Positions 3,498 through 10,213 of a stretch of 10,213 nt of DNA are shown here, one piece after another; positions within the stretch are counted from its first letter, which is position 1, and every line of letters starts with the position of its first letter. The DNA is taken from contig JAAYMJ010000200.1 of NCBI GenBank assembly GCA_012521455.1, positions 1-10,213 of the forward strand. Direction: 5' to 3'. Origin of the DNA: Clostridiaceae bacterium. GTDB taxonomy: Bacteria; Bacillota; Clostridia; UMGS1883; JAAYMJ01. The notes beneath the pieces are model-generated. The model worked only from the letters and a program-made list of their open reading frames with translations. It did not search any database and was not told where the DNA came from. The translations under genes and the position numbers were made by a program.

Positions 3498-3941
3498 CTA
3501 ATTTTGTTTTTCAACTATCAATTTTACCCCTCTGATATCCTTTACAATCACTTTTTCCCCTTTTTTTATATTTTCCTCGCTTGAAGCCGACCAGATTTGG
3601 TTTAATACCTTTACCTGGCCGGTGCCTTTTATGTTATCTATCTCCTCGATTACAACCCCTGTCTTTCCGATAACCCTGTCCGCGTTGGTTGCTTCTTTTT
3701 TTGCCATAAGTTTTTTGTCCACAAAAGGTTTTGTAAAAATTAAAAGCACAAAGCTTACCACGAAAAAGACCGCAATCTGCCAATAAAAGGGCGCGCCAAG
3801 AAAAGCCAAAACCAAAGAAAACAGGCTTCCGATGGCAAACCAGGTGGTAAGAAGGCTAACAGTAGCCGCCTCGATTACAATAAAGGCAACTAACAATATA
3901 AGCCAAAGTAATATGTCGGGATTTAAAATTAGCTGGTCCAT
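3498..3941 (-). CDS. NfeD-like membrane protein (short, protease-less form)
   Basis: This 147-residue protein has three hydrophobic segments (about residues 10-27, 31-49 and 53-70). A soluble C-terminal domain of about 60 residues (RVIGKTGVVIEE ... GTGQVKVLNQIWSA ... GEKVIVKDIRGVKLIVEK) matches the OB-fold of NfeD. It lacks the N-terminal ClpP-like serine protease of long NfeD proteins. NfeD proteins bind SPFH partners through this domain; here the partner follows 11 bases downstream. The frame is open to an ATG at 3986, but that codon overlaps the -10 box of the promoter and has no ribosome binding site. The ATG at 3941 follows a purine-rich GGGGGG/GCGGGA stretch and begins just before the first membrane segment, so I choose it. 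Confidence 0.9.
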   Translation of the reverse strand: MDQLILNPDILLWLILLVAFIVIEAATVSLLTTWFAIGSLFSLVLAFLGAPFYWQIAVFFVVSFVLLIFTKPFVDKKLMAKKEATNADRVIGKTGVVIEEIDNIKGTGQVKVLNQIWSASSEENIKKGEKVIVKDIRGVKLIVEKQN

Positions 3942-3984
3942 ATTATCCCGCCCCCCTTTATATAAAAATAAATAAGCTAGTTTC

Positions 3985-4013
3985 ATTATATCAGATGACG
4001 GGTTTTATAACAA
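3985..4013 (-). promoter_or_regulatory. Extended -10 promoter of the nfeD-SPFH operon
   Basis: On the - strand, TTGTTA (4013-4008) and a perfect TATAAT (3990-3985) are separated by exactly 17 bases, with TG one base before the -10. This is a strong housekeeping sigma-A type promoter. The transcript would start near 3978, giving a 5' leader of about 37 bases to the ATG at 3941. Confidence 0.75.
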
Positions 4014-4181
4014 TCAAAAACTTTCCCTTTGTGTTTTTCAATAAAGGATTGGTTTTTAAAAAATTTATTTTTATGCATATAAAATTTATAAAACAATATG
4101 GTTTTTTAACAGAAAACCACAAAAAATTGACTAATGCAAAAGATTATCAAGCCCATTTTTATTGTAAAAAACCAAAGTGAG

Positions 4182-4648
4182 TTTTCCACATAAATACGTG
4201 TATAAGCCAAAAAATTTAACCTTAAAAATAAATGATTATGTCAACTTCTATTAACATAATTATACACATATCCACAGGCTTATCCCACTACTTTTCCACC
4301 TAAAACAGCCCTGATTTTTAGGTTATACACAGAGTTATCCACATTATCCACAGAAATTCACTTAATTTTTCCACATTTCCATAAAAAATTTTCCACCTTG
4401 AAAATGGTGGATTTTTCAGGTTTACAAAATTATTTTACACTAATTGCCATATAGCATTTTGCACAATTAAAACACATAATTTTATATGTAGCATGATGAA
4501 TGTATAAAATTTCGCCTGCTTTGCCTTTTAGTTTGGCAAATAAAAAATTTTATAAATGTTTTTGCATAGTTATGCACAAAAAAGCACAAAACATCCCCAA
4601 AGTAAATTGTTATTATTTTTGGTGCTAATTTCTTGAAAATTATGCACC
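4182..4648 (+). other. DnaA-box cluster (origin-like or DnaA-titration locus)
   Basis: Five perfect TTATNCACA boxes occur on the + strand: 4260-4268, 4323-4331, 4335-4343, 4344-4352 and 4570-4578. Those at 4335 and 4344 abut head to tail. Boxes one base off are at 4182-4190, 4268-4276, 4367-4375, 4457-4465 and 4640-4648 (+), and 4197-4205 (- strand). Two-off sites include 4292-4300, 4389-4397 and 4433-4441. Such density with AT-rich flanks is typical of bacterial replication origins. However, dnaA, dnaN, rpmH or a plasmid rep gene, usually adjacent to origins, are not in the window. A DnaA-binding regulatory or titration cluster is the main alternative. Confidence 0.75.
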
Positions 4649-4661
4649 TGTATTTTATAAT
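4633..4661 (+). promoter_or_regulatory. Promoter of the HisD-like operon, with DnaA box in the spacer
   Basis: TTGAAA (4633-4638) and a perfect TATAAT (4656-4661) are separated by exactly 17 bases. The start would be near 4668, giving a leader of about 29 bases. This is too short for a T-box or attenuator. A near-consensus DnaA box, TTATGCACC (4640-4648), occupies the spacer, so bound DnaA could block RNA polymerase. Confidence 0.75.
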
Positions 4662-4696
4662 TATACTTAATATATAAATTCAGGGGGTTTTGTCAA

Positions 4697-5995
4697 ATGG
4701 AAGTAAATATTTTTAGGTTGGATAGTATCTCTCCCGAGGAGAAGGAAAGGCTCATTAAAAGGGCTGAAATCGACATAACCGACAAAATGGAGCTGGCAAA
4801 AAGCGTTTCTGAGGATATAAAACTAAACGGGGACAGCGCGCTTTTAAAATACACTGAAAAATTTGACGGGGTAAAATTAACCCCTGACAGGATAAAGGTT
4901 AAAAAAGAAGAAATTGAGGAAGGTTATAAGAGGCTTTCCCCAAAGACAAGGGAAGCGTTAGAGTATGCCGCGAAAAACATAAAGGCTTTTCACGAAAAGC
5001 AAAAACCCAAGCCGGTTTGGTTTACATACACCGACTCAGGCCTAATGGTGGGGGAAAAAACCACGCCGTTGGATGATGTTTGCTTGTATGTGCCCCGGGG
5101 AAAGGGAAGTTTCCCTTCGGTTTTATTAATGCTTGGGATACCTGCAAAAGTCGCGGGGGTGGAAAGAATTGTGGTCGTAACCCCGCCCAATGAAGCGGGG
5201 GAAGTGGATGACGCGATTTTAGCCGCGGCAAAAATTATCGGGATTGATGAAATATATAAAGCGGGCGGGATTCAGGCGGTTGCCGCCGTTGCGTTTGGCA
5301 CCGAAACCATACCCAAGTGCCACAAAATCATAGGCCCTGGAAATGCCTATGCCACAGCGGCAAAAAGGTATCTTGCCAATTACATCGACTCATCCCTTCC
5401 CGCAGGGCCAAGCGAGTGCATTATTTTAGCAGATGAGTATCAGGACCCAAAGAAGGTTGCTTTAGACTGGATGATTGAAGCCGAACACGGGCCTGATTCT
5501 GCCGCCCTTTTGGTAACCCATTCGGAAGAGCTGGCAAGGGCCGCAATTGAAATTGTAAAAGAAAATATTAAAAAAATCAGCCAAAGAAGGCGCGAGTTTG
5601 TGCAAACCAATTTTAAAACCTACGGCGGCGTGGTGCTAACAAAAAATTTGGAAGAAAGCATTGATTTTGTGAACGAATACGCCCCCGAGCACATGGAAAT
5701 TATGACCAAAAACCCCTTTGAGGTTTTGGAAAAAATCAAAAACGCAGGGGAAATATTGCTTGGCGACTACACACCGGTTACGCTTTGCAATTTCCTTTTA
5801 GGACCAAACGCAATCCTTCCCACAGGCGGATTTGCGAAAACCTATTCCAGCGTATCGGTGCTGGATTTTGTAAAGCGCTCATCCGTAGGGTACGCGACAA
5901 GGGAAGGGTTTTTGAAAGTGAAGGATTATGCTAAAGAAATAGCCGATGTTGAAGGCTTTGACACCCATGCGCTGGCTGTAAGCGACAGGGAATAA
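4697..5995 (+). CDS. HisD-family dehydrogenase (histidinol dehydrogenase-like), with altered metal/substrate residues
   Basis: This 432-residue protein has family length and the full HisD fold: GIPAKVAGVERIVVVTPP (147-164), AGGIQAVAAVAFGTETIP (189-206), KIIGPGNAYATAAKR (210-224), AGPSE (236-240), the catalytic pair in APEHM (E331, H332), and EGFDTH (E419, H424). Classical HisD oxidises L-histidinol to histidine with NAD and one zinc. Here the zinc-site Gln of QAEHD is Glu261 (EAEHG), the Gly-Asp-Tyr carrying the zinc Asp is Cys-Asn-Phe (N365), and the substrate His of NHVLPT is Ala372. H264 and H424 remain. The ATG at 4697 follows AGGGGG at 4682-4687. The protein is intact, with no sign of decay, but these changes suggest a paralogue with a different substrate or metal use. 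No other genuine histidine gene is nearby. Confidence 0.85.
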   Translation: MEVNIFRLDSISPEEKERLIKRAEIDITDKMELAKSVSEDIKLNGDSALLKYTEKFDGVKLTPDRIKVKKEEIEEGYKRLSPKTREALEYAAKNIKAFHEKQKPKPVWFTYTDSGLMVGEKTTPLDDVCLYVPRGKGSFPSVLLMLGIPAKVAGVERIVVVTPPNEAGEVDDAILAAAKIIGIDEIYKAGGIQAVAAVAFGTETIPKCHKIIGPGNAYATAAKRYLANYIDSSLPAGPSECIILADEYQDPKKVALDWMIEAEHGPDSAALLVTHSEELARAAIEIVKENIKKISQRRREFVQTNFKTYGGVVLTKNLEESIDFVNEYAPEHMEIMTKNPFEVLEKIKNAGEILLGDYTPVTLCNFLLGPNAILPTGGFAKTYSSVSVLDFVKRSSVGYATREGFLKVKDYAKEIADVEGFDTHALAVSDRE

Positions 5996-8934: not shown

Positions 8935-10213
8935 ATGCGGTATAATAGTACGAGGGATAACCAAGTTTCAATATTGTCGTCACAGGCTGTGGTGCAGGGG
9001 CTGTCTTTGGACGGCGGCCTGTTTGTCCCCCAGTCTTTTCCCAGGTTTACTCTTGATGACATCAAGGAATTTTCAGCTATTTCCTACAACGAAAGGGCAG
9101 TAAGGATATTGTCCAAATTTTTTACCGATTTTAAAGAAAGCGAAATTGAGGAGTGCGTAAATTCGGCATATAACAAGGAAAGGTTTGAAACTGCCGAAAT
9201 AGCCCCCACATATAAAATGGATGACAACATTTATATCCTCGAACTATGGCACGGGCCCACCTGCGCCTTTAAGGACATGGCGCTGCAGATACTTCCCCAT
9301 CTTCTTACAAAGAGCATGAAAAAAGTAAACCTTGACGGGGAAGTTGTAATTTTGGTTGCCACAAGCGGGGATACGGGAAAAGCGGCCCTTGAGGGGTTTA
9401 AAGACGTGGAGGGCACAAGAATTATAGTGTTTTACCCCCACGAGGGAGTCAGTGAAATGCAAAAACTCCAAATGGTGACCCAGGAAGGGCAGAATGTGTG
9501 CGTAATTGCGGTATCCGGCAATTTTGACGACGCCCAAAACGGGGTAAAGGGGATTTTTATAGACGAAGAATACCAAAATGAATTAAAACAAAAAGGCTTT
9601 TACCTATCCAGCGCAAACTCCATAAACTGGGGCCGCCTTGCCCCGCAGATTGTGTATTATTTCTCAACTTATGCGGATTTGTTGAGAAATGAGGAAATCC
9701 AGCTGGGGGAAGAAATAAATATCGTGGTACCCACGGGGAATTTCGGGAATATCTTGGCGGCGTATTACGCTAAAAAAATGGGGCTTCCCGTTGCAAAGCT
9801 GATTTGCGCCTCAAACAAAAACAACGTGCTTACGGATTTTATAAATACAGGTATTTACAACAAAAACCGCGAATTTTTCACCACTATATCACCTTCCATG
9901 GATATTTTGATTTCCTCAAACCTTGAAAGGTTTATTTACGACATAGCGGAAAGAGACGACGAAAAAGTGCGCCAGTATATGAAAAAGCTTGCGACGGATG
10001 GCACATACCAGCTTGAGCCCGGGCATTTTTCCAAAATGCAGGGGATTCTTTATGGCGGGTTTGCTGATGATGAAAAAACCTTGCAAACCATAAAGGAAAT
10101 TGAGGAAGAATACTCCTATGTGCTAGACACCCATACGGCGGTTGCCATGGCGGTGTATATGGATTATGTTGAAAAAACCAAGGATACTAAAAAAACCGTT
10201 ATCGCTTCAACCA
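8935..10213 (+). CDS. thrC: Threonine synthase, 3' truncated by window edge
   Basis: This PLP enzyme converts O-phospho-L-homoserine to L-threonine, the last step of threonine synthesis, in the cytoplasm. The visible 426 residues start with the family pattern YNSTRDNQVSILSSQAVVQGLSLDGGLFVP and contain HGPTCAFKDMALQ, with the PLP-binding lysine at K113. They continue with VATSGDTGKAA, NSINWGRLAPQIVYYF, and VVPTGNFGNILAAYYAKKMGLP. This is the long bacterial (E. coli type) form, normally about 490-500 residues, so about 70 are missing at the C-terminus. The frame stays open to the last base. The ATG at 8935 follows GGAGG at 8921-8925. It is transcribed from its own promoter, behind a terminator, and no other threonine genes are visible. 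Confidence 0.96.
   Translation, partial: MRYNSTRDNQVSILSSQAVVQGLSLDGGLFVPQSFPRFTLDDIKEFSAISYNERAVRILSKFFTDFKESEIEECVNSAYNKERFETAEIAPTYKMDDNIYILELWHGPTCAFKDMALQILPHLLTKSMKKVNLDGEVVILVATSGDTGKAALEGFKDVEGTRIIVFYPHEGVSEMQKLQMVTQEGQNVCVIAVSGNFDDAQNGVKGIFIDEEYQNELKQKGFYLSSANSINWGRLAPQIVYYFSTYADLLRNEEIQLGEEINIVVPTGNFGNILAAYYAKKMGLPVAKLICASNKNNVLTDFINTGIYNKNREFFTTISPSMDILISSNLERFIYDIAERDDEKVRQYMKKLATDGTYQLEPGHFSKMQGILYGGFADDEKTLQTIKEIEEEYSYVLDTHTAVAMAVYMDYVEKTKDTKKTVIAST

Follow-up and report, generated by a model that had tools for sequence, protein, structure and literature searches.

A conserved DnaA-box cluster upstream of hisD in a Clostridiaceae bacterium: a likely non-origin element with phased boxes and inverted bracket motifs

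In a Clostridiaceae bacterium, a dense run of DnaA boxes lies in the intergenic gap between nfeD and hisD, and raises the question of whether such a site is an origin of replication, a DnaA-titration site or a regulatory region. The window analyzed here, a stretch of 10,213 nucleotides, is an entire contig (C289) of a 1.8 Mb assembly of 387 contigs that is about 82% complete. An earlier note, made from the sequence alone, had counted five perfect and six one-mismatch TTATNCACA boxes between 4182 and 4648, and our box scan reproduced this count to the base. The near-uniform orientation (+ strand for 10 of the 11 boxes), the head-to-tail abutting pair (4335-4343 and 4344-4352) and the AT-rich, gene-free nature of the gap (26.6% GC, with a single unsupported 61-aa ORF inside) were as described, and the two neighbours, nfeD on the - strand and a HisD-like gene on the + strand, were both supported by Pfam. 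The features are presented in Table 1. None of 2000 dinucleotide shuffles of the gap (3942-4696) reached the five perfect boxes (mean 0.08, maximum 2), and none matched the 12 boxes with at most one mismatch present there (mean 1.9, maximum 7).

Table 1. Features of the nfeD-hisD region, in positions of the window
Feature	Position	Strand	Evidence
nfeD, divergent neighbour	3498..3986	-	Pfam
DnaA-box cluster, 11 boxes with at most one mismatch, 10 on +	4182..4648	+	box scan, shuffles
Perfect TTATNCACA boxes	4260, 4323, 4335, 4344, 4570	+	box scan
One-mismatch TTATNCACA boxes	4182, 4197 (- strand), 4268, 4367, 4457, 4640		box scan
Left bracket TTATGTCAAC, one mismatch to TTATGTWAAC	4236..4245	-	motif scan, alignment
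Perfect DnaA box TTATACACA	4260..4268	+	box scan
One-mismatch DnaA box ATATCCACA	4268..4276	+	box scan
Degenerate box TTTTCCACC, two mismatches, -31 position of the array	4292..4300	+	array comparison
Core tri-box array TTATACACA-GAG-TTATCCACA-TTATCCACA, start-to-start 12 and 9 bp	4323..4352	+	box scan
Box TTTTCCACA, perfect for TTWTNCACA, +44 of the array	4367..4375	+	box scan, array comparison
Right bracket GTTTACAAAA, one mismatch to GTTWACATAA	4420..4429	+	motif scan, alignment
One-mismatch DnaA box TTTTGCACA	4457..4465	+	box scan
Perfect DnaA box TTATGCACA	4570..4578	+	box scan
Predicted hisD promoter TTGAAA-17-TATAAT, sigma-A-like, 11/12 matches	4633..4661	+	promoter scan
hisD, histidinol dehydrogenase; the element accompanies hisD in relatives	4697..5995	+	PF00815

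Across the assembly of this bacterium, perfect boxes numbered 119, whereas the reversed pattern gave 35, and boxes as such are therefore common. The objection raised in the earlier note, that a similar density might be found in many other intergenic regions, held to the extent of two places: clusters were rare, and among the matches listed (100 of the 119) only the dnaA region and contig C69 had one. Pairs of same-strand perfect boxes at most 30 nt apart were found in the window and on C69 only. The C69 cluster contains seven boxes with at most one mismatch (5107-5331); judging from translations, it is flanked by a GH36-like gene, which it partly overlaps, and by an MFS gene. The exact core array occurred in the window only, and a second core match, on contig C256, had three mismatches and looks like chance.

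We analyzed the conservation of the cluster in 80 hisD loci from one genome set, plus more from further relatives. Among 82 loci (the window and locus L054 included), eight had a region with at least three perfect TTWTNCACA boxes per 200 bp upstream of hisD, and the other 1.27 Mb of sequence in these loci had none. With TTATNCACA at one mismatch or fewer and at least four boxes per 200 bp, 13 of the 81 hisD upstream regions (window included, 56 kb) were positive, compared to seven clusters in the remaining 1.26 Mb. The HisD tree comprised 79 of the 82 sequences, short translations having been dropped; the cluster was present in 14 rows and lacking in 65, which makes the trait patchy. Six changes of the cluster label were needed, of which well-supported branches forced two, and one clade held 8 of the 14 cluster-bearing rows. 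The loss of boxes in relatives, named in the earlier note as a refuting observation, is thus true of many relatives with hisD and untrue of others, which have retained them. Rfam at its gathering score gave no match in the window and only tRNAs in six related loci, and a T-box or riboswitch leader of the his operon was rejected for want of such a match. The cluster of the window is part of an element that is conserved upstream of hisD.

A k-mer enrichment upstream of the cluster-bearing hisD genes returned TTATGTAAAC and GTTTACATAA beside the DnaA boxes. In the window, two TTATGTWAAC-type motifs, at 4236 and 4420, bracket the boxes in inverted orientation, 184 bp apart and with one mismatch per arm; when the gap was shuffled 2000 times by mononucleotides, such a pair arose in 6 shuffles. 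Of the 81 other hisD loci, 10 had an exact inverted TTATGTWAAC pair, 182-196 bp apart and bracketing boxes, and the rest of the sequence (1.27 Mb) had one more such pair. As these ten loci are the clade of eight and the sisters L140 and L148, the independent support beside the window amounts to two lineages. The window, L140 and L148 align with one another across both brackets and the core, and the L140 core, TTTTAAACT-GAG-TTTTCCACA-GCTTCCACA, has the same spacing as that of the window. Three further loci (L122, L134 and L141) had boxes with a single exact bracket motif, another three (L054, L092 and L240) had boxes without an exact motif, and genome G187 had the motif at one mismatch only. 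The motif also occurs once in the rpmH-dnaA gap of this bacterium. On C69, exact bracket motifs lie at 5246 and 5429, 183 bp apart in the same orientation, the second inside an ORF. Within the bracketed element of the window, positions 4392-4411 hold a 6-bp hairpin followed by a T-run, terminator-like on both strands.

The phased core extends well beyond hisD. With up to three mismatches, the arrangement of box, 3 nt, box, 0 nt, box was found in 176 of 391 Clostridia genomes, versus 5 of 391 for a control with shifted spacing (4/1) and nine matches in eight genomes for a reversed core (counted by hand among the matches listed). The order-swapped 0/3 array was nearly as common (149 of 391), which indicates that the 9/12-bp phasing holds generally for DnaA-box arrays in Clostridia rather than being specific to this element, and weakens the tri-box order as a unique signature. 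Among 36 arrays compared, 27 had a further box with at most one mismatch at -29 to -33, where that of the window has two mismatches; the +44 box offset recurred in families f6 and f43 (six arrays: L221, L222, L224-L227) and in other arrays. A spacer motif AAACAGCC between the -31 box and the core, first an impression by eye, was set aside for its low column information. A palindrome resembling ACAAAACANNTGTTTTGT was seen about 15 bp past the array in L201-L207, L215-L218, L220 and L234. In family f22 (G190-type), the order-swapped array was letter-for-letter identical in many genomes among the matches listed, and these copies possibly mark a second fixed site.

We tallied the neighbours of 24 arrays, hand-chosen from the 176 positive genomes. 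Half of them (12/24, from eight families) lie upstream of hpf, encoding a ribosome hibernation factor, at 180-276 bp in the nine cases fetched. Three others are beside SBP_bac_3, one is upstream of hisD (G187), four had no assignment, and single arrays lie beside the 3' end of spo0A, RNase III, seryl-tRNA synthetase and a GH3 gene. No box cluster was found upstream of hpf in this bacterium or in the genomes with hisD arrays; among the 27 hpf loci inspected, two of which had short upstream stretches (L265, L268), one (L254) had a cluster. A partnership with hpf was accordingly rejected for this genome. In 3 of the 80 hisD loci (L140, L148 and L128), hpf lies about 6-8 kb from hisD, and the two array sites may therefore share an ancestral neighbourhood. 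Chromosomal position was analyzed in 14 of 18 genomes, closed or near-closed and with rounded lengths, the multi-contig G143, G160, G274 and G375 being dropped and the two-contig G391 kept; the 14 come from eight families and are not independent. In 12 of the 14, the distance between dnaA and the best array was within 15% of the chromosome, one of these (G158) by a weak three-mismatch match. The exceptions were G082, at 24.9%, and G187, at 44.4%, where the array is the one at hisD. In G060 and in G187, some 75-110 kb separate the hisD array from the skew maximum, presumed to be the terminus; the assembly of this bacterium is fragmented.

Extra-oriC DnaA-box clusters are known functionally in B. 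subtilis, E. coli and Streptomyces, and the B. subtilis clusters (DBCs) with a function in initiation timing are called oriC-proximal. The DBCs were reportedly described by Okumura et al. in 2012. Deletion of six of them leads to early initiation, according to the portions of the sources consulted (PMC5295017, PMC13220808). On balance, the cluster of the window is likely to be a non-origin DnaA-box cluster akin to these DBCs, a reading that we prefer as the least costly and that agrees with the third possibility offered in the earlier note, a DnaA-titration or regulatory site. It resembles the DBCs, as excerpted (PMC5295017, PMC4447404, PMC13220808), in having several dense intergenic boxes away from oriC and dnaA and in being one of few per genome, and the tendency of the Clostridia arrays to lie near oriC is a further likeness. 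It differs in that the 12/9-bp tri-box core and the inverted XerD-half-like brackets were not met in those excerpted descriptions, which were compared as descriptions and not as aligned sequences. Several observations count against the preferred reading: most hisD relatives (65/79) are without a cluster, the exact bracket pairs come from two lineages, some box-bearing loci have one exact bracket motif or none, the phasing is general in the class, and the hisD arrays of G060 and G187 are near the terminus whereas the B. subtilis clusters are oriC-proximal.

In this DBC-like element, one-strand boxes at fixed 12- and 9-bp steps sit inside an inverted TTATGTWAAC pair about 184 bp apart. Several DnaA molecules would occupy neighbouring boxes of the phased array, and DnaA bound there would be withdrawn from oriC. 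Like the six extra-oriC clusters of B. subtilis, the element would in this way help to determine when initiation occurs. A partner protein probably binds the bracket motifs, XerD being our best guess for its identity. Other known systems are less close, as far as the excerpts describe them. The E. coli sites DARS1 and DARS2 share a three-box core of fixed spacing outside oriC, but their box I is opposite to boxes II and III whereas the three core boxes of the window are all on the + strand, and DARS2 depends on IHF and Fis (PMC5742627); membership of the DARS family is excluded by this orientation. E. coli datA is likewise an intergenic DnaA-box cluster, one that lowers initiation, but it depends on an IHF site that separates its boxes 2 and 3, the likeness being one of description and not of compared layouts (PMC5742627). 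DnaA-dependent attenuation of the E. coli his operon also links DnaA boxes to histidine genes (PMC10989985, in part); since the boxes there are in the hisL leader RNA and those of the window precede the promoter, the resemblance is probably a coincidence, and this parallel was set aside.

The strongest competitor of the DBC reading is a role in transcription. DnaA acts at the sda and ywlC promoters of B. subtilis, and the cluster could similarly be a regulatory region ahead of hisD, where DnaA would activate or repress transcription of this gene and of those that follow it; we regard this as possible but doubtful. A promoter scan gave nine promoter-like sites versus 5.7 in shuffles, and a one-mismatch box (4640-4648) sits in the spacer of the predicted hisD promoter. 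The core, in contrast, is 280-310 bp upstream of that promoter, and the spacer box was not repeated, by eye, in the other printed hisD loci. The element stays with hisD while the upstream gene differs, nfeD upstream of hisD having been found by tblastn in none of the other loci compared. The downstream neighbour is hpf in 12 of the 24 class-wide arrays and hisD in one, and DnaA is a transcription factor at several extra-oriC sites, as stated in the excerpted part of PMC4447404. Against this, one array group (f27, L208/L233) is beside a gene that ends towards the array, leaving no promoter to control on that side, and the arrays near SBP_bac_3, the spo0A 3' end and RNase III argue against one common target. 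Titration by the DnaA boxes and a role at the hisD promoter may both hold at once.

A quite unlikely alternative is a partition or terminus element, in which the XerD-half-site-like brackets would be the conserved part, the DnaA boxes being carried along or cooperating in chromosome unlinking or SMC unloading. The printed XerD half-site of several dif sites is TTATGTWAAC(C/T), in the excerpted text of PMC2731167, and the bracket letters equal these XerD arms; XerD is the SMC unloader at the terminus (PMC12322038, in part, citing Karaboja et al. 2021). The brackets are also better conserved than the boxes when the window is aligned to L140 and L148, the same motif occurs at the rpmH-dnaA gap and on C69, and in G060 and G062 the sole dif-like match (at most two mismatches, 6-8 nt spacer) lies at the hisD bracket. 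However, the XerD assignment leans on a 10-letter match, and hpf arrays carry at most one such motif. A dif site joins a XerC arm, a 6-bp centre and a XerD arm, whereas the window has two inverted half-sites about 184 bp apart, each with one mismatch, and no XerC arm; no dif-like match was found in G061, the G012 contig or 400 kb of G187. The case for dif at hisD is weak.

An origin, either displaced on the chromosome or belonging to a second replicon, is highly improbable. Such a reading would fit an AT-rich gap with dense boxes of a single orientation, and the GC skew changes sign at the cluster within the 10 kb of the contig; this change coincides with a change of gene strand and is thus weak evidence for an origin. 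The dnaA gene lies elsewhere, as the earlier note had proposed to check: contig C318 carries an intact rpmH-dnaA-dnaN region (Pfam), a separate canonical oriC that has its own boxes, six with at most one mismatch within 160 bp on the rpmH-dnaA side and four in the dnaA-dnaN gap. The latter gap also holds a DnaA-trio-like run, AAG-TAG-CAG-CAG-TAG, by a simple triplet scan, and the same scan found no trio in the window gap (3987-4696). Cumulative GC skew, also proposed in the earlier note, had no minimum at hisD on the long contigs of five relatives (G060, G061, G062, G012 and 400 kb of G187), being merely flat around hisD in G062. The ten window genes scanned with Pfam (PFL, two spore-coat-like, SPFH, NfeD, HisD, HisB, a fumarase C-terminus, DUF1858 and MFS) are ordinary chromosomal genes, and none of them is a rep gene, a ThrC-like frame at 8935 lying outside the scan. 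On dnaA context, trio scan and skew, we rejected the origin and second-replicon readings. Chance in a gap of 26.6% GC, in a genome with 119 perfect boxes, is a scarcely credible source of a cluster whose box counts no dinucleotide shuffle reached and whose arrangement is common to the window and its relatives.

To return to the DBC-like element, it might belong to a composite Clostridia element, in which a phased DnaA-box array and inverted XerD half-site brackets would couple the replication initiator with the machinery of terminus and segregation (XerD, SMC unloading). One branch would have such an element beside hisD, close to the terminus, and others would have it by hpf, close to the origin and without the full bracket; DnaA availability would be set at two chromosome ends. 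We consider this extension unlikely, its boldest part being the XerD link, for which the evidence is a short motif. In the open-licence literature searched, as far as its accessible text goes, no description was found of a Clostridia extra-oriC cluster with a fixed architecture. A class-wide signature, combining the 12/9-bp tri-box, XerD-like brackets and an hpf or hisD neighbour, would make it possible to predict sites of this kind from sequence and to test them in species that can be cultured. A further question would then be whether XerD and DnaA come together on one DNA.
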